A DNA stretch of 32,914 nucleotides from Chrysophaeum taylorii (Eukaryota > Sar > Pelagophyceae > Pelagomonadales > Pelagomonadaceae). The DNA lies in contig JAQMWT010000193.1 in the NCBI GenBank assembly GCA_029834535.1, positions 1 through 32,914 on the forward strand. The letters run 5' to 3'. The position numbers and the translations under genes were made by a program. The notes below the pieces were generated by a model. It did not search any database, had not been told where the DNA came from, and was given only the letters and a program-made list of their open reading frames with translations. Positions 1,487 through 32,914 of this stretch are shown here, one piece after another (position 1 is the first letter of the stretch; each line of letters starts with the position of its first letter).

Positions 1487-1596
1487 CAACTACGCGTCAT
1501 CCTCTGATGATACAGAGCCGCTATTACTCCGGGATGTAATGTTCGGCCACACTTATGTTCAGGCAGAACATTAAGGCTTCCTGCACCCCTTTTTTT

Positions 1597-1880
1597 CCCG
1601 GCGTAGGTTGGCACCTATTCGCCTCCCGGGCGGGCCGGTTGGCAGCCGGAACGTTCGCAGTGGGACGGGGTATGGCCGGGGGGCGCAGACGGAAGGTTAT
1701 CGACGAGTTGGTTGTCAGTCACATCGCGGTCTCCCGTCGCATGGCGACAAGCTTGATGATCACTCTCCGCCGACCCACCTTTCGGCGCCCCTCGTCTACA
1801 GGCCCGTGATTCCGGACTGGCTCCTGCCGGTCCGGCCTGGCTCCCATGCTCGGGAGAGGTCTGAAGTTAGTTAGTTAGTT
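1597..1880 (+). repeat. SINE-like repeat, copy 1 (5'-truncated)
   Basis: This copy belongs to the dispersed repeat present six times in the window. It starts inside the family at CCCGGCGTAGGTTGG, so about 70-80 bp of the 5' end are missing. It ends with GGTCTGAAGTTAGTTAGTTAGTT, the family's (GTTA)n tail. Loss of the 5' end with an intact 3' tail is what target-primed reverse transcription produces. I found no target duplication for this copy. Confidence 0.8.
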
Positions 1881-2689: not shown

Positions 2690-3145
2690 CCCCACAAAAC
2701 CACACATATCCTTCATGCAAGACACACACCCTCCCCTCTTAGCCAACTAACTAACTCACTAACTATCTAATTTCAGACCTCTCCCGAGCACGGGAGCCAG
2801 GCCGGACCGACAGGTGCCAGTCCGGAAATCACGGGCCTGTAGACGAGGAGCGCCGAAAGGTCGGTCGGCGGAGAGTGACCATCAAGCTTGTCGCCATGCG
2901 ACGAGGAGACCGCGATGTGACTGACAACCAACTCGTCGATAACCTCCCGTCTTCGCCCCCCGGCCATACCCCGTCCCACTGCGAACGTTCCGGCTGCAAA
3001 CCGGCCCACCCGGGAGGCGAATAGGTGCCAACCTACGCCGGGAGGGCGGATGCCCTCGCAAGGCTCAGGATTCATGAGGCACCGTCCTCCACCGCAACCG
3101 CGGTCAGCGATCAGGGTAAGGGTCCCCTCTTAGCAGTCGACCTTT
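2690..3145 (+). repeat. Non-LTR-like tail repeat, copy split by a SINE-like insertion
   Basis: Bases 2690-2743 and 3123-3145 together match the 3' flank of the PD-(D/E)XK-type ORF at 11360-11436: a C-rich stretch with CATCCTTCATG, then CACACACCC, CCCCTCTTAGC, AGTCGAC and TTTAAAGAC. In this copy the SINE-like element 2744-3122 interrupts the repeat between CTTAGC and AGTCGAC. Only the terminal part is present here, as expected of a strongly 5'-truncated insertion. Confidence 0.65.
2744..3122 (-). repeat. SINE-like repeat, copy 2 (full length)
   Basis: This full-length copy of about 379 bp lies on the minus strand. On the plus strand it begins with the complement of the (GTTA)n tail and ends with CGATCAGGGTAAGG, the complement of the 5' end. 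It is flanked by a perfect 12-bp direct duplication, TCCCCTCTTAGC (2732-2743 and 3123-3134). The duplicated target belongs to the tail repeat also seen at 11.4 and 11.6 kb, so the host sequence is known independently. Confidence 0.9.
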
Positions 3146-7680: not shown

Positions 7681-7691
7681 ACCAGCAAAAC

Positions 7692-8057
7692 TAACTTAAC
7701 TAACTTCAGACCTCTCCCGAGCATGGGAGCCAGGCCGGACCGACAGGAGCCAGTCCGGAATCACGGGCCTGTAGACGAGGGGCGCCGAAAGGTGGGTCGG
7801 CGGAGAGTGGTCATCAAGCTTGTCGCCATGCGACGAGGAGACCGCGATGTGACTGACAACCAACTCGTCGATAACCTTCCGTCTGCGCCCCCCGGCCATA
7901 CCCCGTCCCACTGCGAACGTTCCGGCTGCCAACCGGCCCGCCCGGGAGGCGAATAGGTGCCAACCTACGCCGGGAGGGCGGATGCCCTCGCAAGGCTCAG
8001 GATTCATGAGGCACCGTCCTCCGTCGCAACCACGTGGTCGGCGATCAGGGTAAGGTT
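7692..8057 (-). repeat. SINE-like repeat, copy 3 (full length)
   Basis: This 366-bp minus-strand copy is flanked by a 12-bp direct duplication with one mismatch, GACCAGCAAAAC (7680-7691) and GACCAGCGAAAC (8058-8069). The tail here is a short, irregular CTAACTTAACTAACTT on the plus strand. It interrupts the transposase-like sequence that flanks it on both sides, so it is younger than that transposon. Confidence 0.9.
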
Positions 8058-9379: not shown

Positions 9380-9387
9380 ACAAGTGC

Positions 9388-9700
9388 AGGCCAGTAAGTT
9401 CACCTACTCCCAATCTCTAACCCCAGTAATTTCACCTGGTCCCAGTAAGTTTCATATAAGTTCACCTGGTCAGTAAGTCCACCTAGCTCACACCAACTCC
9501 TTTGAGCTCGTCGCTCTCGCCTCCGCCAATCTAAGCTGCTTTGATCAACACGCGCCGCCAACCTTTGAGTTTACTCTAAAAACCCTTTACTCTAAAAACC
9601 CCAGTATGTTCACCTGGTCCCAGTTTCACCTGGTCACTCAGTTCACCTAGTCCCAATCTCAAACCCCAGTAAGTTCACGTGGTCCCAGTAAGCTTACCTA
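9388..9700. repeat. Iteron-like array of AGTTCACCTGGTCC motifs (unit A)
   Basis: About ten variants of CCAGTAAGTTCACCTGGTCC occur here, broken in the middle by unique sequence and a short ACTCTAAAAACCC duplication (about 9572-9602). The same array in complement follows the helicase fragment in unit B (about 23450-23790), so it is an integral part of the mobile unit. Confidence 0.75.
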
Positions 9701-9729
9701 TAGTGCGCGTGTAGACACCGGGAGGGGGC

Positions 9730-10300
9730 TTATCGGTATTGCGCAGCACGTGTGGGGTAGGGTGGAGTCGTCGACCCAGATGAGTATATCCTCGGGGATG
9801 CCGATCGACAGAGAGCCACGTAGAGCTGGACGTGGCAGAAGACGGGCTTGGGAAAGAGGACGCCGACCTCGCGGGGCGTCTGGCCCTGGCTCTTGTTGAT
9901 CGTTTGGCGTAGGCGGGCCTTAAGGGATACAGGTTGGAGGAGCCTCGGTGACAACGACACGATCGATCATGTATCTGGCACCGTTGCAGTGGCCGTGCGA
10001 CGGGTCGAGGTTTCGAAGACCTTAAGCTCGCGCTCAAAGTCAGCATCCCGTTGGTTGTCAGGGAGTTGAAAACTCTACTGTAAAGAGCGAGGCGTCGTCT
10101 TCCGACCCAGCCTAGTCAGCCGAAAAGAACTCCGACGCCTCGTCTCTGGGAAAAAAAGGCCGCGGTCATGCGCACGTTGTCAGCATCGACAACATCGTTT
10201 CGACGGGGCGTGAGAATGGCGCGCTGAAAGAGCCGCCGCGGCTCGTGGAAATAGTCTGCGAGGTCGCCGTAGACGGCTTGGAGGATCACTGTCTGGCTCT
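9730..10300 (-). pseudogene. Helitron/Pif1-type helicase C-terminal part (unit A)
   Basis: Reading on the minus strand across several frames, I see a DLADYF/ERAIL-type segment (about 10265-10200), then LRNLDPSHGHCNGARYMID (about 10020-9955, the family's NLDPxxGxCNGTR signature), then PLRPAYA, and in the next frame QTINKSQGQT (motif V), VFCHVQLYVALCR (motif VI) to about 9730. Intact Helitron helicases unwind DNA during rolling-circle transposition. Here the ATPase N-terminus and the Rep domain are absent. The frame break between PLRPAYA and QTINKSQ is shared with unit B, so it predates their separation. Confidence 0.7.
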
Positions 10301-10343
10301 CGCGCCTACCTGATCCTTACTCTCGCGCCTACCTGATCCTTAC
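10297..10343. repeat. 23-bp tandem duplication
   Basis: CTCTCGCGCCTACCTGATCCTTA occurs twice in direct tandem near the outer end of the helicase part of unit A. Unit B has a single equivalent. Confidence 0.8.
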
Positions 10344-13172: not shown

Positions 13173-15578
13173 TTAGTCGTGGAGGGCCAAGACGACGACG
13201 GTGACGTTGTCGATGGAGCCCCGGCGGAGGGCCTCGTTGGTGAGGGCCTTGGCCGCGTGGTGGAGGTTTTGGTGGGCGTGGAGGTCGGCCCGGAGGAAGT
13301 TGAGGGCCGATTGCATGGAGAGGGCGTCCCAGAGGCCGTCAGTCGCGATAACGAGGAAGTCGTCGGTATCGGCGAGGGTGCGGACGGCAACTTCGGGGGT
13401 GGCCGTCAAAGTGGGCGGACCGGTCGCGGCCCGGTGCGCGAGGTCGCCGAAGCTGCGCGAGACGGAGAGCGAGCCGTTGAGCCTTTGGTTGACGAGAAAG
13501 GCGCCGGCCGCGGCGAGGCGCGCGCGCTCGTCTTGTCTGGTCGCGAGGCGGTGGTCGCGCGTGAGAGGGACGGCTGTGCCGTTTGCGCTGAGGACGCACC
13601 TCGAGTCGCCCGCGTGAGCGACGGCGAGGCGGCGCGAAGGTCCGTCGAGCAAGGCGACGAGGGCCGTAGAGCCCGACTTGTCGTCTGAAGCCGCGAGGCG
13701 CGCACAGCAGGCGGCGTCGCAGTCGGCGAAGGCTCCGACCATGGCGTGGAAGGCGTCGGCGTCGAGCCTCTTGACGATGGCCCCGTGGAGGTCGTGCTGG
13801 AGGAAGGTCGCGCACGCGGCGCCGTCGTGGCCGTCGAAGACGCCAACGTAGGCCAAGCCGGGCTTGCCGTCGGCGACGACCGAGAGGTCGGGGATGACGG
13901 TGACGCGGTCCTCCTGGGTCGGGCGCTGGCCGCGCGTGGAGTGGTAAGCTGCGCTCACGCGGGCGGCAGGGTTCGAGATTGGGGCGCGGATTGCCGCGCG
14001 GCCTCGGAACGAAACGGTGTTTGTCGGAAGAAGTAATTGTTGCTCTTCGATTTCGATCGAGACGTCGAGGTCGTTGCTGTTTCGGCAGGTGGCGATCTCG
14101 TCGTCGTCGTCCGAGTAGTCGTCGTCGTCGTCGGGCGTGGTCCGACGACGCGAGGGAGGGCGCTTGCGCAAGAAGGATTCCGCGCGGCGCCGTTGCTCGA
14201 GGGGTCCGAGACGTTGTTTTTTCGAGGGCGAGCCGCCGAGTTTGGGCATCGCGCCGAGCCAGGGGTCTCCCAGGACCTGCTGGATGGAAGCGCGGCGCGC
14301 GGGATCCTTCGTTAGCATGGTCGCGAGGAGCCGAGCGAGACCCGCGTCCACGCTCCCAGGAATCTCGAGGGCGTCGTGAATGATTTTGTGATAGAGGGCG
14401 AGGACCTTGTCGGCGACAAAAGGCGGTCTCCCGACGCAGAGCATGAACATCGTGCCGCCAAAGGCCCACACGTCCGCCGCGGGGCCCGAGTAGCTTTCGC
14501 CGGCGCAGATCTCGGGACACATGAAGGCGGGCGTGCCTGCCGTGTCGACAAGTCTGTCTTTGTCGTCACGTAGCATCTTCGCTATCCCGAAATCTCCGAT
14601 CTTGACGACCCCGTCTTCGCCGACGAGGAGGTTCTGGGGCTTGATGTCGCCGTGGACCACGTTCTGGAGGTGGAGGTACTCGAGGCCGCACGCGACCTGC
14701 CGAAACACGTGCCACAGCGCCCTCTCGGTCATCGCGTCGCAACTGTAGCTCGTCGCGTCGCCGTGGAGCACGTGCATCAAATCGCCCCGCTTCATGTACT
14801 CGAGGACCAAATACAACTTGTTGACGTTGGGGTCGTCCATCACCTCGTAGAGCCGGAGGACGTGGGGGTGGGACAGCTTTTTCATTATCGTAATTTCCCG
14901 CTTGATGTCCTCGAGCAAATCACCTCGCGGCGACGTCGGCTTGAGCTTGAGCGCGGATTTCGTTATGATTTTTATCGCGTACAGTTGGTCTGTCGTCTTC
15001 TCCTTGCACAGCCGCACCTCGGCGTAACTCCCGGTGCCGATCGACTCGAGCAATATGTAGTTGTTCACTATCGTCCGCTTCTTCACGTAGTCCCCCGACG
15101 TTGGCATCGGATGTGGAAGATCCGACGGCAAGCTCGCCCGCTTTCGATGAACCTCGTGCGTGTCCTTGACGCCCTCTTCCACGGGAGGAGACCGGCTGGG
15201 GGGCCTCGTCGGCGATAACTTTCGACACGGCGGCGTCCTCGTCGGTGTCCTCGTCGGCGTCCTCGTCGGCGTCGCGCTCTCGGATTTGTTCGGCGTCCGC
15301 ACCTCGCTCCGCGTCGTCGTCGTCGTCGTCCGTGGCTGGGTGTCGAAGGCGCACCAGTCGTACACCTCGTCGCTGCTCATGTCGTCGCTGTCGCTGTCCA
15401 CCGCCACCGTCGAGGGGACCTCTTTGGCCGGCGGCGCCGTGCTTTGGGGATCTTTGGTGCGTGGTGGCGGGCCCGGGGTCTTCGACTGCGGCCGGGCGAT
15501 GACCCGCGGTGTGCTGATCACCACCTGCGGCCTCTTCTCCTCCACATCTTCTTCCTTGGAGACTGCGCCCGACCCCAT
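13173..15578 (-). CDS. Ser/Thr protein kinase-PP2C phosphatase fusion
   Basis: This intact 801-residue protein is encoded without introns. Residues 1-160 are Ser/Thr/Pro-rich with a TPTR repeat (about 103-115) and probably disordered. The kinase domain (about 174-441) has the Gly loop GTGSYAEV (181-188), Lys203, Glu228, HGD at 309-311 in place of HRD, DIKPQN, DFG (329-331) and an FMCPE activation-segment end. It resembles the CaMKK/LKB1-related kinases that activate AMPK/SnRK1. An acidic linker follows. The PP2C domain (about 540-801) keeps EDR (556-558), DGHDG (582-586), GDSR (657-660), TDGLWD with Asp747, and DN (790-791), so all metal ligands are present. One polypeptide could phosphorylate and dephosphorylate a shared target. 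The gene is divergent from the gene at 15783. Being full length and uninterrupted, it is the clearest host gene here. Confidence 0.93.
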   Translation of the reverse strand: MGSGAVSKEEDVEEKRPQVVISTPRVIARPQSKTPGPPPRTKDPQSTAPPAKEVPSTVAVDSDSDDMSSDEVYDWCAFDTQPRTTTTTTRSEVRTPNKSESATPTRTPTRTPTRTPPCRKLSPTRPPSRSPPVEEGVKDTHEVHRKRASLPSDLPHPMPTSGDYVKKRTIVNNYILLESIGTGSYAEVRLCKEKTTDQLYAIKIITKSALKLKPTSPRGDLLEDIKREITIMKKLSHPHVLRLYEVMDDPNVNKLYLVLEYMKRGDLMHVLHGDATSYSCDAMTERALWHVFRQVACGLEYLHLQNVVHGDIKPQNLLVGEDGVVKIGDFGIAKMLRDDKDRLVDTAGTPAFMCPEICAGESYSGPAADVWAFGGTMFMLCVGRPPFVADKVLALYHKIIHDALEIPGSVDAGLARLLATMLTKDPARRASIQQVLGDPWLGAMPKLGGSPSKKQRLGPLEQRRRAESFLRKRPPSRRRTTPDDDDDYSDDDDEIATCRNSNDLDVSIEIEEQQLLLPTNTVSFRGRAAIRAPISNPAARVSAAYHSTRGQRPTQEDRVTVIPDLSVVADGKPGLAYVGVFDGHDGAACATFLQHDLHGAIVKRLDADAFHAMVGAFADCDAACCARLAASDDKSGSTALVALLDGPSRRLAVAHAGDSRCVLSANGTAVPLTRDHRLATRQDERARLAAAGAFLVNQRLNGSLSVSRSFGDLAHRAATGPPTLTATPEVAVRTLADTDDFLVIATDGLWDALSMQSALNFLRADLHAHQNLHHAAKALTNEALRRGSIDNVTVVVLALHD

Positions 15579-22559: not shown

Positions 22560-22656
22560 ATCCTTACTACTAATCGACAGATGTTTGTCTGTCTGTCTGT
22601 TTGTCTGTTTGTCCCCCGATTTAGGGTAAGGATCAGGTAGGCCCGCGAGCCAGGCA

Positions 22657-23423
22657 TTGATCCTCCAAGCCGTCTACGGCGACCTCGCAGACTATTTCCA
22701 CGACCCGCGGCGGCTCTTTCAGCGCGCCATTCTCACGCCCCGTCGAAACGATGTTGTCGATGCTGACAACGCGCGCGTGACCGCTGCCTTTTTTTCCCGG
22801 AGACGAGGCGTCGGAGTTCTTTTCGGCCGACTAGGTTGGGTCGGAAGACGACGCCTCGCTCTTTACAGTCGAGTTTTCAACTCCCTGACAACCAACGGCA
22901 TGCTGACTTTGATCTCGAGCTTAGAGTCTTCGCAACCTCGACCCGTCGCACGGCCACTGCAACGGTACCAGATACATGATCGGGGGGCGAAGACGGAAGG
23001 TTATCGACGAGTTGGTTGTCAGTCACATCGCGGTCTCCTCGTCGCATGGCGACAAGCTTGATGGTCACTCTCCGCCGACCGACCTTTCGGCGCTCCTCGT
23101 CTACAGGCCCGTGATTCCGGACTGGCTCCTGTCGGTCCGGCCTGGCTCCCATGCTCGGGAGAGGTCCGAAGTTAGTTAGTTAGTTAGTTAGTCATGTCGT
23201 GTCACCGAGGCTCCTCCAACCTGTATCCCTTAAGGCCCGCCGACGCCAAACGATCAACAAGAGCCAGAGGCAGACGCCCCGCAAGGTCGGCGTCCTCTTG
23301 CCCAAGCCCGTCTTCTGCCACGTCCAGCTCTACGTGGCTCTCTGTCGATCGGCAACCCCGAGGATATGCTCTTCTGAGTCGACGACTCCACCCTACCCCA
23401 CACGTGCTGCGCAATACCGATAA
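22657..23423 (+). pseudogene. Helitron/Pif1-type helicase C-terminal part (unit B)
   Basis: The plus frame reads ILQAVYGDLADYFHDP, RLFQRAILTPRRNDVVD (helicase segment before motif V), FNSLTTNGM and, after a frame change, LRNLDPSHGHCNGTRYMI (22929-22982). There the SINE-like copy interrupts. After it come PLRPADA and, in the shifted frame, QTINKSQRQT, VGVLLPKPVFCHVQLYVALCR to about 23360. Like unit A it lacks the ATPase N-terminus and Rep domain. Confidence 0.7.
22982..23191 (+). repeat. SINE-like repeat, copy 4 (5'-truncated)
   Basis: Only the 3' 210 bp are present, from GGGGGGCGAAGACGG to a (GTTA)5 tail. Unit A shows the uninterrupted target (ATACATGATCGATCGTGTCG, near 9960), so this is a clean insertion between ATGATCG and TCGTGTC. 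No long target duplication is visible. Confidence 0.9.
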
Positions 23424-23449
23424 GCCCCCTCCCGGCGTCTACACGCGCA

Positions 23450-23790
23450 CTGTAAGTGAACTTACTGGGACCAGGTGAACTTACTGGAACCAGGTGAACT
23501 TACGGAGGTTGGAGATTGGGACTAGGTGAAATTAGTGACCAGGCGAACTTACTGGGACCAAGTGAACTTACTGGGGTTTTTAGAGTAAACTCAAAGGTTA
23601 GCGGCGTGTGCGGATCAAAGCAGCTTAGATTGGCGAGGGTGAGAGGGACGAGTTCAAAGGAGAGGGGTGAGTGGATGTGAGCACGAGTGGGCTTGCGCCG
23701 AACTTACTGGGGTTAGAGATTGGGACTAGGTGAACTTACTGGGACCAGGTGAACTTACGAGGGTTAGAGATTGGGACTAGGTGAACTTAC
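23450..23790. repeat. Iteron-like array (unit B)
   Basis: About eleven GGACCAGGTGAACTTACTGG variants lie in two blocks separated by unique sequence, complementary to the array in unit A. The phrase GGTTAGAGATTGGGACTAGG recurs as a longer subunit. Confidence 0.75.
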
Positions 23791-23861
23791 TGGCCTGCAC
23801 TTGTTTCTACAGAAGGGCAGCACAGTGGAAATTACTGTTCTCTAGGTCACGGGCACCAGTC

Positions 23862-23870
23862 TGGTATCGG
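23862..23870 (+). other. E3 possible primer-binding site
   Basis: TGGTATCGG lies three bases after an ACCA and about 50 bp before the Gag-like ATG, resembling the TGGTATC start of initiator-Met primer sites. With no LTR defined this is tentative. Confidence 0.2.
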
Positions 23871-23919
23871 TAGAGGAGGATTGCCAGACATCGCTTCTGA
23901 CGTTCCACCCCAAGCAAAG

Positions 23920-25481
23920 ATGCCAACAAGCAATCCATATCTACGGCAAGAGTTCGTCAACCAACGAACCCAACACCAACAAGACATGCAAGCACAAGAA
24001 GCTCGACTAGAAGCTCGGCACCAACAAGACATACAAGCACAACAAGCCCAACACCGACACGACATTCAAGCTTTTCACAACGAACTTCTCGGGCACTTGC
24101 AAGGTATCAATACCACACCACCACCTGCCGTCGCCGCAGCGACTGCTTCCTCCACTCCGGCTCCACAAGACCCCAAGAGCAAAGCCACCACCTTCACAGA
24201 CCCACCAAGCTCTGTCCTTAAGTCTATGGATTGTGCGCAAGTCACACCTCTGATGCTCTCCTATCATGCCATGCAGTTGCCCACCGAGCATTTGATGCAT
24301 GGAACCGGCATCACTCATTACTTCTTGCAGGGCTTCTACACATGGGAATCCGTCATACGCGGATATAACGATCTCGCCGACGCTCTTCTCGGCCACTGCA
24401 TCGCTGAACACGACAAGAACCCCGAACAACACGCCACAGCCGGCAACACCGCGGACTTTCCAGGTCGGCTGGTCTACTACCAGGGCGTCTACTGCAAATT
24501 CGGCAATTCGCCAAAGATTTTTACGACACCATATATAAACCCAAACTCCAAGAACTCCAAGCGCAAGATAAGGACCCCACCAATCCGTCGCAAGGAAAGC
24601 TCTATCCTATAACGCAACCACCCCACCTCCAAGACAAAGAAGCCGACTTTGTCGTGTACATCCGCGAGACCGTGCACCCCCTGTTTCGCCGCTTCCTGCA
24701 CGCCGGTCGTGCCTCTGTCAAACGCCCAGCATACGACGAAATCGACAAGCTCGGATCGTTCTCACCCAATAGGTCTCGAATTCGTTCACCAAGTCCGCTT
24801 AGCACTCGACAAACACACAGGCCAGAACCACGTTTATCACGCACATTATGAGTTTAACACGTACTCGGAGACTCAATTCAACCCGGAGATCCACGAGCCT
24901 GCACATTACATCGACTATCTTCTTCATGTTCAACAGCAACTCCGCCAAATCACCGACGACACCTCTTTACAACTCACCGATGGCATGATCAAAGAAGAGA
25001 TTCACAAAATCCTCCGCTTCAAGTACCCGTCCAGCTTACTGGACTCCCGCGCCCCAACCCACATCAAAGGCTTCGCTCGTCTTGCTAATTGTCTTCGTAC
25101 TCCAAACGACTCTCAGCTCCGTGACGAAGATAAAGCCGCGATCCATCATCTGTAAAAGCTGATTGCACGCATCACAGTCATCTCCACCTTTGAGCGCAAC
25201 TTCTGGGCTCACCTGACGCCCCACCACTCGCTCAACTTCAAGCCCCTCCGCTTTGTCACAGATTTCGGTCGCCTGCCCACCAAAGACCAAGATAATCCAC
25301 GACTTCGTCCTCGCCGCCTTGGTTTCCATCCCACCGAAGATGACGATGACGCGTCTCCCCCTGAATACGTAATACCTCCGGATCCAGATGAAGCATCTTT
25401 TGACGACGCCGACCTTGTCGACGCCTTTCTTACTGAAGCCGACCTCGATCTAGATGAGGACCATCCTCTCATCCAACACCT

Positions 25482-25483
<2 letters not shown>
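23920..25483 (+). pseudogene. E3 Gag-like protein, N-terminal and central part
   Basis: From ATG 23920 the protein starts with a Gln/His-rich coiled coil (HQQDMQAQEARLEARHQQD, about 23980-24080), then a Pro/Ala linker and a helical core (LMLSYHAMQLPTEHLMHG, GYNDLADALLGHCIAEHD). Frame 1 gives way near 24500 to QFAKDFYDTIYKPKLQELQ in the next frame, and near 24770 to FVHQVRLALDKHTGQ, YIDYLLHVQQQLRQITDD and KILRFKYPSSLLD. A single in-frame TAA (25153) precedes further acidic sequence (LVDAFLTEADLDLDEDHPL) up to the SINE-like insertion. Position, coiled coil and a following protease suggest a Gag; no knuckle was found. Confidence 0.45.
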
Positions 25484-25513
<30 letters not shown>

Positions 25514-25823
25514 CCTAACTACCTAACTAACTTCAGACCTCTCCCGAGCATGGGAGCCAGGCCGGACAGGCAGGAGCCGATCCGGAATCACAGAGGAAAA
25601 TCCCGCAGTTGGGGCAGAGGCGAGGGACGAGGACTCGTTGATGACGGACCGCCACTGCGCGCGGTCTCGTGCGAAGTCGTGCAAAAGCGTCGCAGGCCGC
25701 AAACGTGTTGGTCCACGAACAAACCTGTCCGTCGCGTTCTGCCCAACCGAGCGAACCCCATCCCAGCGCGGACTTTCCGGGTGCTAACCGGCCAGCCCGG
25801 GAGGCGATCAGGCACCGTCTCAC
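25484..25823 (-). repeat. SINE-like repeat, copy 5 (variant body)
   Basis: This 340-bp copy is flanked by a perfect 12-bp duplication, TCCAACACCTAC (25472-25483 and 25824-25835). It carries a long (CTAA)n tail complement. The last ~65 bp next to the tail and a block near the 5' end match the other copies, but the middle (about 25605-25765) is different sequence. It sits inside the E3 Gag-like frame. Confidence 0.85.
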
Positions 25824-25835
25824 TCCAACACCTAC

Positions 25836-26443
25836 ACGCTAATCGAAAGAAAATAATGTCCCGCCACGCAAAGAAACCCAAAAAGCACCCCAATCCCCGT
25901 TCGCCGTCATACTATGGCATCAATGACAGCCCCAAGCCCAAGGCAACACCGGTCACCCCTACCAAGCAGAAGCCAAATCCCCGTGTTCCCCCTATCACCC
26001 CTGACAAACGCGAACACCCGCACCTCCGCAAGGTCACCTTTCCCACACAAACTCATCCTCCCAAGCCAACCATCCCTGACCAACGGCTCAAATTTCCCCT
26101 TCGTGATGTCCGCCGCAAGCTCGAGACTATCCGCAACCTCAGTCAAGCCGGCCAGCAACACACCTCCAACCCTGACCGTATGAACAAACTCATCAAGCTC
26201 ATCACTACTATCCCCGACGAGATCCTCATCTCTAAGGCAGATAACGACGCCGCCGACTTTCTTCAGCTCCTCTCCTCCGACCACCCGCCGGATGATCCAG
26301 CTGATGAGGGCGTTATAGACGACGGCTCGATGTACGATGATCAAGGTCAACTCGGCTTGTATGATGATCATGGGCAACTCGGCTTATACGACGATCAAGT
26401 TCCCGAAATCGAAGCTCCACAAGAAGACTCGATCGAAGACTAA
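25836..26443 (+). pseudogene. E3 Gag-like protein, C-terminal part
   Basis: After the right-hand target duplication the frame continues with a basic, Pro-rich stretch (SRHAKKPKKHPNPRSP, TPTKQKPNPRVPPITP) that could bind RNA, a helix (DVRRKLETIRNLSQAG) and an acidic tail. The tail has a 27-bp repeat encoding YDDxGQLGL (about 26332-26400, nearly three units), ending at the TAA 26441. Without the insertion and one target copy it is in frame with the part before 25483. Confidence 0.5.
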
Positions 26444-26535
26444 GTACAACGCCACCAAGGTTATCTACGTGCTTTTCACCAAAGCCAGCTTTTTCGCTAA
26501 CGGTTGACGACGACGCCTGTGCCGCCAACCAAAAC

Positions 26536-26990
26536 TTGCTGAACCAGGCACCAAGCCTTGTGATGTCAAAATTTCCAACTTCATCGACAATTTCTTCCAG
26601 AGTCGCAGATTTCATGTGCGCTGTCTTCACCTCAAGTAAGTCACCCAAAAAGACTCACTCTCTGCACGGATGTAACGGCCCCGGCACTGAATTTTCGCTG
26701 CTTGATGGAGGCGCATCCTTTTGTTTCACCCGCACCATTAAAAACTTTGTGCCCGAGTCTATCCGCAGGATTCCCGATCATACCATCCGAATGGGACGAG
26801 GCACCCTCACCAGCAATTTCATTGGCATCAAACCATTGTAGCTGCAGGCCGCAGGCCTCTCCTCACATGACACCAGGGGCTCTACCGGCTATGCGCCATA
26901 TTTGGTTTTCCTTGTCGTTCCACACTTCCGACCAGGTTTGGAGGTTATAGCAACATCTCAACTCTTAGCCTTAAACGGTCAGGTAACAGA
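26536..26990 (+). pseudogene. E3 aspartic-protease-like domain
   Basis: The frame reads GTEFSLLDGGASFCFTRTIKNF (Asp codon 26704-26706), close to the LLDSGASxxF active-site start of retroelement proteases, with DGG for DSG. The second half (YLVFLVVPHFRPGLEVIATSQLLALNG, about 26890-26970) fits the beta strand and LG-like end of the fold, less well. An in-frame TAG at 26839 separates the halves. Downstream the same frame runs straight into the methyltransferase region. Sequence 26444-26640 is coding-like in changing frames. Confidence 0.45.
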
Positions 26991-27378
26991 CCCGCCACTG
27001 CCATACCCCCCATATCTATATGAGCTTCTGAAACACTCTACTTCAGATCCGCATGACTACAAAACGCTTTTAGGCACCACTGCTGTAGTTATCGCTCACA
27101 GACAAACCAACGGCCTCCTGTCCCTGCCCTCTCATCCTAAAAATGCCTTCGACCAAGTGGTCAGCTTCCACACTCGTCGTGACATGTCTCTCAAGGACGA
27201 AATCGCGAACATCACCCAAAAGGTCTCGAAAACTCGATCGCAGTCTCACTCTCTCGATTTCGCCAAATTGCAAGCCCACTCCGCTTTTTTGACGGAATCT
27301 TTCAGACTGCCGAGCCCCTATTTAGAATATGCGCTCACTGGCATCGCGGACCTCTCTGTGTACACACAATCCTCTCCG

Positions 27379-28265
27379 CTGCACGTTGCCATCATCGCAG
27401 GTGGACTCCACCAAGACGGCTTCGCTTACTTTCGCAAAAGATTCGACAAACAAGTCATTGTCGTAGCCACCTGTGAAATCAACCCCACTCACTATACGTG
27501 CCCGAGCGCAACATGTGTTCCCAGATGCCCAGCAATACAGGGATCTCCGGCAACTCACTGCCGATCTTCAAAATGAAAAACTCGCTTGCCTCGATTAGAC
27601 ATGGCAGTCTTCACCCTACCATGTCAACACCTAAGCACAATGAAGGAATACGACGGCTATGCGACCCCAGCGACTGCCGACCTTTTTGTCAACGAGCAAG
27701 CTCGCTTTGTTCGTCGCACGCTCCCGACCTACACCATCGTCGAGAACGTACCACCAAACCCAAAAACTCACCACGAGTACGCGCAACTCGCAAAACACGA
27801 TCAAAGTATGGGCTACTTTAGACACGCCGGTGTCTATAACGCCTCGTCCTTCGGCGATGCCTTCAGCAAGAACCGCTACCTCGCTGTTTTCGCTCGGCAC
27901 CCTTTAGATGGCTACAATCTAGAGAAAACCGCCTCCACCTGGTTCACATCCCCCTCCTAGCATGGTTCCCTTTTTGGGTCCTGTTCACACCATTCCAGCA
28001 GACCTATGGATACCTGCCCCCGCTCTTCGCGGCACCGTGGCTCGCTCGACATTGGATTACTATCGCCACGAGGCCCTCTTCTCGTATAAACCCGTCACCG
28101 AAGCCCAGCTCTCGATTTCCGAAAACGCCCGCATCTGCAAAATGCTCGCACGCCTCAAGGCTCCCTTCCTGGATCTCGGACTGGACGCAGACGGCACCCC
28201 CTTTGCCTCCATGGCTTCCATCCCGAACCTCCTGTTCTTCACATTGCTGCACAGTCATTTGCTAA
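27379..28265 (+). pseudogene. C5 cytosine-DNA methyltransferase (E3), nearly complete but frame-broken
   Basis: Motifs of the DNMT/Dcm family appear in order: LHVAIIAGGLHQDGF (motif I region, 27382-27405), CEIN (27475-27483), AQHVFPDAQQYRDLRQLTAD in the next frame (27506-27595), DMAVFTLPCQHLS with catalytic Cys (PCQ 27619-27627), YTIVENVPP with catalytic Glu (ENV 27742-27750), and YNASSFGDAFSKNRYLAVF (27844-27888, motif VIII with Arg). After TAG 27958 and a frame change come TEAQLSISENARICKML (about 28097, motif IX-like) and SIPNLLFFTLLHSHLL (about 28217-28264, motif X-like). Transfer of methyl to cytosine C5 in DNA is the family's reaction. The three catalytic residues survive; two compensating frame shifts near 27495 and 27595 break the ORF. 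It lies directly after the E3 protease domain in the same frame. Confidence 0.85.
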
Positions 28266-28537
28266 AGCACCCAACTCTCGCTGCCTGGAACACGCTTCGC
28301 TGCTTTCGCGCATCCGAGTCAGCACATGCATGCCAGTTGGATGGACCCATCTCAGGCACAGCCGCTACCGCGCTTGCATGCGGCTACTTCACGCGCGCCT
28401 CTCTCACGATCCATTCGCGCCCTCCCCAGATCCTGGCTTGCTCCCACCGGACCGCCTCCTTTTCGCCGCTACACGCCTTTTCTATGTCTGTTCCCAAAGG
28501 CCCGCTTTCCTGGTCGTGGCCTTCACCACCTCCTTAG
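28266..28537 (+). pseudogene. E3 tail after the methyltransferase
   Basis: The frame of motif X stays open to 28537, while a second frame (from 28330) gives HDPFAPSPDPGLLPPDRLLF and TRLFYVCSQRPAFLVV, which looks at least as protein-like. I cannot say which is real. No reverse transcriptase motif (such as YxDD) is seen. Confidence 0.25.
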
Positions 28538-28554
28538 CCAGGGGCCTAAAAGGA

Positions 28555-28912
28555 CCAGAAGTCCTGGTCCTCCAACGGACCTGGTCCTTTGGGGGTCCTG
28601 GTCCCTGGTCGGTCCTGTCCTCCCGAGGTCCGAGGTCCCCCGGGAGTCCTGGTCCTCGGAGGTCCTCGGTCCTCCGGGAGACCTCCGTCCTCTGAGAGTC
28701 CACCGTCCTCCGAGAGTCCTCGGTCCTTGGGGTTCCTCGGTCATTAGGGAGTCCTCGGTCCTTAGGGGGTCCTCGGTCCTTAAGGGGTCCTCGGTCCTCC
28801 GAGAGTCCTCGGTCCTCCGGGAGTCCTCGGTCCTTAGGGGGTCCTCGGTCCTTAGGGAGTCCTCGGTCCTTAGGGGGTCCTCGGTCCATAGGGGGTCCTC
28901 GGTCCATAGAGG
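28555..28912. repeat. 18-bp minisatellite
   Basis: Nearly twenty units of GTCCTCGGTCCTTAGGGG and close variants. Units toward 28740-28910 are most alike; those at 28555-28700 are more diverged. On the plus strand it encodes an SSVLRx hexapeptide repeat, which I consider incidental. It lies between the end of E3 and the E4 LTR. Confidence 0.9.
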
Positions 28913-29280: not shown

Positions 29281-29895
29281 TCAAGGGTGACGAAGGTCAC
29301 GCTCACGAATGGTACGATAAGCTCGTTCAGCTACATCAGCAGGAACTTTGTTGCTGTGGAGATCGAAGTTAGTGACGAGGACATCGATTTCATCCGGGCG
29401 AAAATCAGTCACACAGGGTTCACAGCCCTCCATGTTTGGTCGTAGGCGTGTGAAGCTACCTCCGTCAGGATCTTTGTATTCTGATCTTAAGCGCCGCTCA
29501 GCCAGAGGCTTAGTAGGATCAAAGACGCGAGGATCATCGCGTGGTCCCAAATCGGTATAATAGTGAAGCGCAACTGTGTCATTGTCGTGGTCATATTCTT
29601 CGTAGACTTCGGCAACATAGATACGCTTCTTCCACGCGTTGGATCGTCCTTTCACCCTGAAAATCACGAACTTACCATGTTTGAACCGGTCGCGGTCCGA
29701 GGGTAAATGTAGAGGGGCTGAAGAAGTGTCGATGGTTGGCAGTTTCAAAGGCACAATCTGTTGGACAGATACTACAACCGATTCAGCATCATCGTCGTTA
29801 ACGTCTTGAATTTCATAAACGACGGGAGAGATCTTTCTAGTAACCATGTAAGGTCCGCGCCAACTGGGCCGTAGCTTGTGGCGTGTTTTAGGCAC
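29281..29895 (-). CDS. E4 integrase C-terminus, GPY/F module and tail
   Basis: The longest open piece of E4 (204 codons) begins KTRHKLRPSWRGPYMVTRKI (29890-29830), the GPY/F module that follows the integrase core in many Ty3/gypsy elements and aids DNA binding and target choice. It is followed by about 150 residues with an acidic/aromatic middle and DFRPDEIDVLVTNFDLHSN near the end. The upstream junction reads through a frame change into KAQESQKLNYDAHQ and then the SINE-like copy. It is open by itself but cannot be expressed as part of an intact Pol. Confidence 0.65.
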   Translation of the reverse strand: MPKTRHKLRPSWRGPYMVTRKISPVVYEIQDVNDDDAESVVVSVQQIVPLKLPTIDTSSAPLHLPSDRDRFKHGKFVIFRVKGRSNAWKKRIYVAEVYEEYDHDNDTVALHYYTDLGPRDDPRVFDPTKPLAERRLRSEYKDPDGGSFTRLRPNMEGCEPCVTDFRPDEIDVLVTNFDLHSNKVPADVAERAYRTIRERDLRHP

Positions 29896-29995
29896 GAAAC
29901 GCAGAACATAATCACCTGGGAAAACTGGATGTCAACTTGGTGGGCATCATAGTTGAGTTTTTGACTCTCCTGTGCTTTCTGATGAGCTCGTGTAA

Positions 29996-30354
29996 TGATC
30001 GCCGACCGCATGGTTGCTATGGAGGACGGTGCCTCATGAATCCTGAGCCTTGCGAGGGCATCCGCCCTCCCGGCGTAGGTTGGCACCTATTCGCCTCTCG
30101 GGCGGGCCGGTTGGCAGCCGGAACGTTCGCAGTGGGACGGGGTGGCCGGGGGGCGAAGACGGAAGGTTATCGACGAGTTGGTTGTCAGTCACATCGCGGT
30201 CTCCTCGTCGCATGGCGACAAGCTTGATGATCACTCTCCGCCGACCCACCTTTCGGCGCCCCTCGTCTACAGGCCCGTGATTCCGGACTGGCTCCTGTCG
30301 GTCCGGCCTGGCTCCCATGCTCGGGAGAGGTCTGAAGTTAGTTAGTTAGTTAGT
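29996..30354 (+). repeat. SINE-like repeat, copy 6
   Basis: This 359-bp copy is flanked by a perfect 8-bp duplication, TCGTGTAA (29988-29995 and 30355-30362). It starts at TGATCGCCGACC, about 10 bp inside the longest copies, and ends with (GTTA)4. It interrupts the E4 integrase: the coding sense before 30362 (HSRLVTR) continues after the copy as TRAHQKAQESQKL. Confidence 0.9.
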
Positions 30355-32914
30355 TCGTGTAACGAGTCGACTATGAAATTCAAACTTGCTCTTAAAGTCC
30401 ACCAAAATCTGATGACGTGATTGCGGTAGATCACACTGTTCACCCAAAAGATTGTAATCGGGTGGTAACAGGGGTTGCTTGCCAGTACGCATCATGAAAG
30501 GTGAAATCTTCGTTCCCGGAATGTACATCCTATTGTACATGAATGACACATATGGGAGGAAATTCGACCAATCTGGCTGACGCACATTCATCGATGCCAG
30601 CTCGCAAGAAGGCTTTGATTAATCGTTGACACGCTCAATATGATTACTCTAAGGATGATACGGAAGGGTGTACGATAACGTACGTTGAATTGACGAACGT
30701 GCAGAAATAACCGTTCGCGAACTCATTTCCATTATCCGTGACTATGCACCGCGGGGAGCATCCCTCAAGTAAAATCTTGTCCACAAACGCGTTCAAAATC
30801 GAAATCCTGCTTCGTGTTGATCAAGAGCTAATTTCAAGGATGCTGCATCGTACATTGCAGTATGTCGCGTGTACAGGTCAGCGCGCATAAATGAGGTGCA
30901 ATCAAATCCATACCTGCGGACATAGCGAGTCTCCGACGTGATTGCGGTTGACAGAGCAAATCACGGCGGCAAGAGCATGGTGGATCGATCTTCTGGCAAA
31001 TAATGCAGGCATTGACGAACTCATTAACGGATAGATGAGACGTTTGGCCACCAATACCGTTCTAAGATTTGCGATTCGCTGTGGAATCTCGTACTATATG
31101 GCCTCCGAACAAGCCTCGGTGATGCATGGCGATCACAGCATGCATAGACAGAGGGACCACAATAAGACGTTGAGAATCTGAATCATCGACCTTATACAAC
31201 ACGTTGTCATCAATCTCATATGGTACGGATGACGCGCTCGTCTAGATCACTCTGTTCCGAATCGAGCTTCGTCTGATGCGCTGCATGTTTCCTTCCAGCT
31301 TGTTCTTTTGCTATCTCATAGTGATCTCATCCTCCGCTTGATCCGCAAAAGGGGGCGTTCAGGAGTCAACTGAGCTCAGATTCGTACGAGAATCGAGGCG
31401 GTTGTACGTTCTGATCGCGTACTAACTGCGCCATAGCTGCGGTGGGTCCGCTGTCCAAAATCAGCATACGCCGTCACCGAAGAGAAGTGAAGCAAGCGGT
31501 GCCAGGGACATCGGTGGGGATTTATTGGAAAATCAAAAAGCTTCATTGATCGGTTCCCGTCTTCATCTTTCTCGATCGATTTTGTCGATAGGATTGCGCG
31601 ACAGACAATGCGGAATACGCGTAGCCAGGGGAGCTTCCAGGTTTGTATCCGAGCTCCCGGTCCGAACGCAGCAAGCCGCATAGCCCGTCGTGCTAACTGT
31701 GCAGACGTATGATTTGAATCCCACAGAAGCGTTGATTACGATGATCCGTCTCTAACTTCGTCTGATGACCTTCGATATAAATCGGAAATTTTCCGAGACG
31801 AAGCGCTGCAGTTTCAAGCGCCGAGATCATACTTCCTCATCGACTTAGGCACGGTTCGACTCCAGTACTCGATAACTTCTCTTCGATTCTTCATCTTCCA
31901 TCGTCGTCAACGACTGGTAGCTTTTGAAATAGGTAAGCACCCAACCCAGCGCGCGGAAGCATCAGTTCGGAATGTAAAAAGGCAACGAGTAATCAGGATG
32001 GTAGGCAGCCCTACGACGTGACAATAACTCGATGATGGTATCCCAAGCTCCCTGACACTCTTTCGTCCACTTGAATTTCACGTCCGGCAACGTCAGTTGT
32101 CTTAATGGCTCTGCAACTTTCGCAAAATTCCTTACATAACGCCGGCAAAAGCTCCCATTCAAGGAAAGAATCGCACTTTAGGGTCAGCATCCGACAAGGG
32201 GCGCCAGGGGTAGGCATGTGTGATGAAGCTCTAAAGTTGAAAAATTTGATGGAAGAAATTAAGGTTAGGGGTAGATAGATGACCCAAAAACCAATGACTT
32301 TGGCATAAAATGAATGTCTTGATCTTGGCGCTGTACCCATAAAGGCGAGATGAGAATAACTTACACTGCAGAGCGCGCCGTGATTCGTATCTGCGTGACC
32401 GGCGAGGCCTTGTATAGTCGATAGCCACGAGATCACGACGCGACCATGGCGACAGTAGGTGATTCAACTGCTTTACAAAACAAGCATCTCGTTTGACTCC
32501 CAAGGTAGAAACGTGTGGCGAGCTCCCAGAGGACTGAAGATGAAGGTGACCACGTAACATCCAGCGACAATCGTAAATTGTGATAGCCCCAACGAATATC
32601 CAAACTGGAACGACAAAATGTCGTAGAAGCATCGCCCATCGGCCGCGCTCACACTCAGCCAGCATAATCGGCGAGCGGCAGCATTGAGGCGCCGTAGGTC
32701 GACAGCTGGCCTTGTAAGTGAGAGTGCAGGCTCAGCACCTTTCTTAGGCAGCATCAAAATGGGAAACTCCATGGAGAATTCGCCCGGGACAGACGAAACT
32801 CCGTGTCCGGGTACGTAAGCAATCTACATCCGCAAACATTCAATCTTTCGACAACCGATGGCAAGGAGTTTTGACGGGAGTCGGGTTCTCTTTGTTGAAC
32901 CGGAACGTCACTTC

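Follow-up and report, generated by a model that had tools for sequence, protein, structure and literature searches.

The window, that is, the whole stretch of DNA analysed here, comprises 32,914 nucleotides of contig JAQMWT010000193.1 (C193), one of 697 contigs in the 70.8-Mb genome of Chrysophaeum taylorii. It holds an element remnant at positions 23806 to 28539 that is homologous to other repeats of the same genome. This copy is a dead, 3'-truncated, and broken Ty1/Copia element with a cytosine methyltransferase region, and all of its own parts lie on the forward strand. The last 39 bp of the 3' end of the 5' LTR are left (23806 to 23844; blastn with two LTRs of other copies, 82 to 85%), and another repeat (23192 to 23806) lies directly upstream of them. 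A Gag remnant in several frames follows at 23977 to 26497 (tblastn with the Gag of copies L010 and L020, 44 to 75% amino acid identity). Inside it, a foreign dispersed repeat of about 320 bp is inserted at 25484 to 25826, as seen from a gap in homology and from 87 to 96% matches elsewhere; copies of this repeat are also present in L005/L026, L009, L015, L022, L031, L034, and L036. The N-terminus of Pol (26461 to 27384; tblastn, 70%) contains the protease-like letters DGGAS at 26704 to 26718, of which DGG was kept in 19/19 sequences searched (18 loci plus the window), and an in-frame stop at 26839 to 26841. The C5-methyltransferase remnant lies at 27385 to 28539, identified by its match to the Pfam profile PF00145, and the order of a methyltransferase behind a protease-like domain, which had been read from the letters at the outset, is thus the order found.

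Within the methyltransferase remnant, translation and a family motif search placed the motif I-like letters IIAGGLHQDGF at 27391 to 27423, motif IV PCQ with the catalytic cysteine at 27619 to 27627, motif VI ENV at 27742 to 27750, and motif VIII FGDAFSKNRYLAVFAR at 27850 to 27897, positions that were determined manually on the translated frames. The greater part of the presumed target-recognition region comes after them. The domain is broken by an in-frame TGA at 27574 to 27576, the second stop in the Pol frame; Pol residues 1 to 497 nevertheless align in one frame to 26461 to 27954 (tblastn, 70%), with frame changes near 27954/27962 and 28501/28504. Homology to the family ends at 28539, corresponding to about residue 692 of the L010 Pol, and 3' of this point the window showed no further family Pol sequence. 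Motifs IX and X (residues ~785 to 825 in the L010 Pol), integrase, and reverse transcriptase (RT) are therefore absent from the window copy. The original prediction of a domain with all catalytic motifs was thus borne out for the motif I-like letters, PCQ, ENV, and motif VIII, which occur in this order, and failed for motifs IX and X; the complete set is present only in other genomic copies. The segment 27577 to 27957 matched PF00145 with an E value of 1.5e-9 (38.2 bits; cut-off, 22), and the domain was also matched in a genome-wide search with the same profile (E value, 7.7e-8).

Shortly 3' of the truncation point, a GC-rich repeated stretch was observed at 28583 to 28905. A 141-bp piece of the family LTR (80 to 84%) lies separate from the element at 2119 to 2259 on the reverse strand. 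A dispersed repeat of ~210 to 365 bp occurs five times in the window (1596 to 1880, 2758 to 3121, 7689 to 8055, 22981 to 23192, and 29996 to 30352), in both orientations and with 94 to 99% likeness; it is present in many other loci, and some 75 to 90 bp of it are common to the insert in Gag. Another repeat, of ~960 bp, was found at 9380 to 10343 and as a reversed copy at 22623 to 22982 plus 23192 to 23806 (82 to 94% mutually; 96% to L009). It adjoins element copies in L009, L039, and the window, which perhaps reflects an insertion preference. A second retroelement of another type lies on the reverse strand at 29281 to 31061, with a match to PF22938 (integrase p58 C-terminal; E value, 1.3e-6) at 29281 to 29931, followed by broken open reading frames (ORFs) that the repeat at 29996 to 30352 interrupts. 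An 801-amino-acid ORF at 13173 to 15578, also on the reverse strand, joins a protein kinase (E value, 3.4e-61) to a PP2C phosphatase (E value, 9.7e-51). Ten further ORFs of the window had no match in Pfam, and a scan of the window against Rfam gave none at the gathering threshold.

A multicopy Ty1/Copia family

A genome search with the family's own domain returned at least 152 pieces of the methyltransferase, and an RT search returned at least 131 pieces of the family RT. In both searches the best candidates were scored, and the counts may include doubles, because contig pairs C25/C521 and C10/C297 carry family copies at nearly equal coordinates and identity, suggesting that haplotypes were left uncollapsed or contigs duplicated. 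PF00145 itself gave 57 matches among the best 123 of 474 candidates; 55 of them coincide, compared by eye, with places of the family, and the remaining two are host-like genes, L001 and L002.

The fuller copies are LTR retrotransposons of 9.35 to 9.64 kb with LTRs of ~200 bp and the domain order Gag, protease, methyltransferase, integrase, and reverse transcriptase. LTR pairs, with starts 9.15 to 9.44 kb apart, were present in six of nine contigs examined; none was found in C314, C328, and C104 within the stretches examined. All six pairs are flanked by 5-bp target-site duplications (GAATT, GTATA, GTTAG, CTCAC, AGGAG, and TCTCC), and their LTR-LTR identity is 0.92 to 0.98 over gap-free columns. 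The LTR termini of these six copies read TAGAGA...TCTCTA, not the usual TG...CA, and the perfect duplications directly adjoin them. No clear tRNA primer-binding match was seen 3' of the 5' LTR in the letters of the LTR flanks.

In copy L010, an ORF of 578 amino acids overlaps a Pol ORF of 1952 amino acids. The former had no Pfam match and was named Gag from its position. The latter matches the DNMT profile at residues 349 to 475, rve at 1016 to 1110, and RVT_2 at 1686 to 1933 (E value, 1.6e-38). PF00145 and RVT_2 were found in one frame in both long Pol ORFs scanned (L010, 1952 amino acids; L009, 1868 amino acids). The integrase profile PF00665 (rve) scored only below its cut-off (E values, 0.0061 in L010 and 8.7e-4 in L018), and the family's integrase region aligns to that of the related protein P0001 described below. 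No profile match to RNase H was obtained in the ORFs scanned, the L010 ORF ending just after RVT_2. An integrase placed before RVT_2, together with the LTRs, assigns the family to Ty1/Copia, not to Gypsy, DIRS, or LINE as in published cases; in line with this, LTRs are present, and six ORFs scanned held no Pfam match to a tyrosine recombinase or a LINE endonuclease-RT.

Linkage between the domains was assessed on the first 74 DNMT places listed, 45 of which have a family RT on the same strand 2.5 to 6.5 kb downstream (median, 4251 bp) and 29 of which do not. Conversely, 24 of the 57 near-full RTs have one of these 74 DNMTs upstream. Many copies are thus partial, and the fuller ones are linked. 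The initial proposal of a retroelement-borne C5 methyltransferase is supported by the significant PF00145 match and by the fuller copies, in which the domain is linked to Gag, protease, integrase, and RT and enclosed by LTRs and target-site duplications; the genome search did not return an unlinked host gene in their place. That proposal gave neither the Ty1/Copia type of the element nor the extent of the family, and its idea that the enzyme marks the element's own DNA or evades silencing is an inference.

Identity and conservation of the methyltransferase domain

On the real METHYLTRANSFERASE question, PF00145 matched all 12 open stretches of other copies. The profile match ends after motif VIII, but the family sequence continues as far as RYATLNEIAKFG and ALANAVPHHML. 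When six copies plus P0001 were combined into a profile and searched against the PDB, C5 cytosine methyltransferases came first among 27 hits up to an E value of 1. The nine top-scoring chains belong to HaeIII, to HhaI, and to two entries that carry only the name cytosine-specific methyltransferase (E values, 4.8e-4 to 0.039), all of which we take to be bacterial. DNMT1 chains followed at 0.31 to 0.62 and two DNMT2 entries at ~0.9; seven RNA helicase chains at 0.24 to 0.28 mark where chance begins, and there was no DNMT3 chain among the 27 hits. When P0001 was left out of the profile, the sole hit was 8yf3 (E value, 0.027). Motifs IV to VIII of the family align with M.HaeIII, M.HhaI, and 8c56, presumably enzymes of the bacterial restriction-modification type. 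The letters of motifs IX and X align weakly to the corresponding end of 8c56 and M.HaeIII, the second PDB stretches over these motifs not being significant alone (i-E values, 7 and 100). Those three enzymes are free-standing, whereas here the domain sits in a retrotransposon polyprotein with about 300 amino acids between motifs VIII and IX.

Searches of a protein database with the domain returned no homologue. Alignment A3 of the family domain scored E values of 0.069 against L001, 0.022 against L002, and 4.8e-6 against a phage KP15 methylase, and scans of IMG/VR with the family alignment A2, L001, P0001, and P0002 returned no relative. Judged from these comparisons, the family's methyltransferase is very diverged. 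An AlphaFold model of a P0001 piece and three window pieces was uninformative (mean pLDDT, 37).

Across 18 loci and the window, PC was kept in 19/19 sequences, Q in 18/19, VEN in 19/19, ENV in 18/19, and the motif VIII arginine in 19/19; motif IX-like letters were present in 16/18 loci and motif X-like letters in 17/18, three of the latter with the asparagine changed. One locus holds two copies, and the best match was taken for these counts. The less damaged copies thus keep the key residues, which suggests that the element uses its enzyme. The domain is under purifying selection: among seven open copies, dN/dS was 0.11 to 0.20 in 15 of 21 pairs and 0.24 to 0.62 in the other six, five of which involve L009, a copy with a local shifted stretch. 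Low values extended in most pairs over the core, the presumed target-recognition region, and motifs IX and X. For integrase-RT, dN/dS was 0.10 to 0.29 in 12 of 15 pairs and 0.34 to 0.63 in three. The domain is therefore about as constrained as the replication enzymes, on estimates that come from open copies and are biased towards constrained ones. We are close to certain that the element is of the Copia type and that its C5-methyltransferase domain is under selection.

Related Copia lineages

A second Copia lineage was found in the same genome (L041 on contig C560 and L040/L020 on C681); on C681, an element of the window's family seems to lie inside one of the second lineage. Its RT is 41 to 43% identical to that of L010, and its region before the integrase aligns with the family domain (hhalign probability, 93; E value, 3.4e-7). 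This region had no match to PF00145. In place of PCQ it has ECT and in place of ENV it has EEM, with the cysteine, glutamate, and arginine kept. The canonical form of the motifs is thus not kept everywhere, PC and ENV as such having been lost in this lineage.

A search with integrase-RT gave 75 proteins, and a C5 methyltransferase was found only in P0001 and P0002, as scored with a profile that includes P0001 itself; two plant gene models, P0029 and P0051, carry other methyltransferase names or domains. P0001 (2396 amino acids; ENA contigs, the longest 10.5 kb) shares the protease-methyltransferase-integrase-RT layout and aligns with the family over all four domains, at 29% over 489 aligned residues in the methyltransferase and 38% over the integrase and RT. 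In its methyltransferase, PCQ is kept and NEM stands where ENV would be, and the domain alone falls below the PF00145 cut-off; a 327-amino-acid piece of it finds the family with an E value of 4.5e-26 and the window copy with 1.2e-13. P0002 (2207 amino acids; a 7.9-kb ENA contig) matches PF00145 at residues 133 to 453 (E value, 4.5e-14) as well as RVT_2. Its domain precedes the protease-like letters and reads SPECQPF and VETLP. Because this domain hardly resembles that of the family (hhalign probability, 6), it may represent a second acquisition or one that has moved and diverged.

In a tree of Copia RTs, one branch (support, 98/94) sets apart the family, the second lineage, P0001, and P0002, and within it the family, the second lineage, and P0001 group together (97/90). 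The tree holds 63 of 79 rows given, 16 with fewer than 180 aligned residues having been dropped, and its midpoint root serves for drawing only. The second-lineage domain further matches 31 places that are on the list of neither group (23 to 27% identity; E values, 4.5e-8 to 2.8e-6), six of which lie 4.0 to 5.0 kb upstream of a same-strand RVT_2 match, compared by eye among the best 150 of 1670 RVT_2 candidates. A broken fragment on the reverse strand of L039 (5645 to 5998) shares 28% identity with the domain and begins with CQHFRITGMYD, but other letters stand at the ENV and arginine positions; it is perhaps a further diverged lineage. It is conceivable, somewhat short of probable, that a C5 methyltransferase is a standing part of Pol in a whole old Ty1/Copia clade, represented here by several, perhaps most, Copia lineages, one of them canonical and the others drifted.

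Proposed function and known systems

In LTR elements, a position in Pol between protease and integrase entails cotranslation and packaging into the particle. From the sequence of the family, we infer catalytic activity, DNA rather than RNA as the substrate, packaging, and a benefit to the element. In a functional copy, the domain would be synthesised together with Gag-Pol, packaged, and freed by the protease, alone or joined to the integrase. Cytosines of the element's cDNA, the nearest DNA substrate for a packaged enzyme, would then be methylated around reverse transcription and before integration, so that a new insertion would arrive premethylated and pass as host-like DNA. Alternatively, premethylation could confer resistance to nuclease or deaminase attack, or could keep the insertion quiet and so spare the host. 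We consider the enzyme likely to be active, regard the element's DNA as its fairly plausible main substrate, and favour, with restrained confidence, the methylation of the element's own cDNA by a particle-borne enzyme. Methylation of cDNA has also been proposed in PMC5890265, which states that the LTR Copia elements of Symbiodinium carry no DNMT domain. That Copia elements elsewhere are mobile in the absence of a methyltransferase counts against this reading.

CpG observed/expected was 1.01 to 1.04 in six elements compared with 1.31 in a host ORF region, and TpG was 1.08 to 1.15 compared with 0.84, the two sets differing in base composition too. Among LTR-pair substitutions, 8 of 23 transitions were in CpG context, and there were 27 transversions. 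Since CpG is not strongly depleted and substitutions were so distributed, no clear footprint of methylation was seen in the CpG and TpG of the six elements or in their LTR pairs. This absence would also fit an RNA methyltransferase resembling DNMT2, which marks tRNA with the same fold and chemistry; such an enzyme could act inside the particle on the genomic RNA of the element or on its primer tRNA, and the two weak DNMT2 hits in the PDB search point the same way. For SymbioLINE, methylation of RNA is brought up in section 11 of PMC5890265. The top nine PDB chains nevertheless argue for a DNA enzyme, and the ORFs scanned showed no RNA-binding domain. DNA C5 methyltransferases carry their target-recognition region between motifs VIII and IX, where the family has its ~300-amino-acid segment. 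On balance, an RNA substrate appears unlikely.

The drifted letters of the second lineage, whose region is still present before the integrase, and the NEM of P0001 would suit a domain that is no longer an enzyme and serves Pol as a structural or nucleic-acid-binding part, for example, in integrase targeting, with letters partly kept by descent. We think this quite improbable for the window's family, in which the catalytic letters are all but invariant and dN/dS is low in most pairs from the core through to motifs IX and X. Taken by itself, the window copy is damaged and no RT follows it, which would suit a host methyltransferase gene, or a chance run of motif letters, beside unrelated repeats. 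This reading deserves next to no credence and was rejected on the strength of the linked copies in the genome. The two host-like DNMTs, L001 (360 amino acids, adjoining a chlorophyll a/b-binding match that hints at the lineage of the probably photosynthetic host) and L002 (which we take to be DNMT5-like from its letters SCVDYSSLN), differ in sequence from the element's domain.

A DNA methyltransferase carried by a retrotransposon is a known idea; what is new is the superfamily, the diverged enzyme, and its wider distribution. Cytosine methylation is one of the main cellular weapons against transposons, and here the type of enzyme that applies it sits inside a transposon. A multicopy family under selection, with relatives on two ENA contigs, indicates that the enzyme has been taken up repeatedly or kept long by retroelements. 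Its use to the element becomes testable, be it in methylating cDNA or RNA or in controlling the silencing of the insertion itself, and the natural series from canonical motifs in the window's family to drifted ones in the second lineage can be used to ask which step needs catalysis.

Published retroelement C5 DNMTs comprise LINE and DIRS elements in Symbiodinium and a Gypsy element in Klebsormidium, according to PMC5890265, and Gypsy and DIRS are repeated in PMC6338049. The two host lineages named in the original prediction agree with these sources, with one caveat. Section 5 of PMC12344493 (2025) places "DNMT3 members" in "LTR Copia and DIRS families," citing the 2018 paper that reports Gypsy; the wording describes a DNMT in an LTR Copia element, as here, but the DNMT3 label does not fit the family. 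Since the section names no element, host, or sequence, "LTR Copia" may be a slip. Besides this sentence, neither a Copia element with a DNMT nor any further retroelement C5 DNMT was recognised in the literature searched, subscription literature being mostly outside its scope. Ty1/Copia would thus be a further retroelement superfamily with the enzyme, after LINE, DIRS, and Gypsy.

The closest known case is KnitGypsy-Dnmt3 of Klebsormidium nitens (PMC5890265, section 9), likewise an LTR retrotransposon whose Pol ORF includes a C5 methyltransferase under purifying selection (reported Ka/Ks, <0.2). It is, however, a Gypsy element with a Dnmt3-type enzyme, whereas the present family is Ty1/Copia by RVT_2 and by an integrase before the RT, its RT groups with Copia, and its diverged enzyme resembles HaeIII and HhaI, weakly DNMT1 and DNMT2, and no DNMT3 in the PDB. 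SymbioDIRS-Dnmt3 and SymbioLINE-Dnmt are multicopy C5-methyltransferase retrotransposons as well, but the former has a tyrosine recombinase and the latter lacks LTRs (PMC5890265, sections 6 and 10). Methylation of CG in yeast has been shown for isolated domains of SymbioDIRS-Dnmt3 (section 10 of that paper); the LINE and Gypsy enzymes gave no activity, a result called inconclusive there. Sola1 of Ectocarpus (PMC12477816) is likewise a mobile element with a DNA methyltransferase, but it is a DNA transposon in which a separate gene encodes a predicted N4-cytosine or N6-adenine enzyme.
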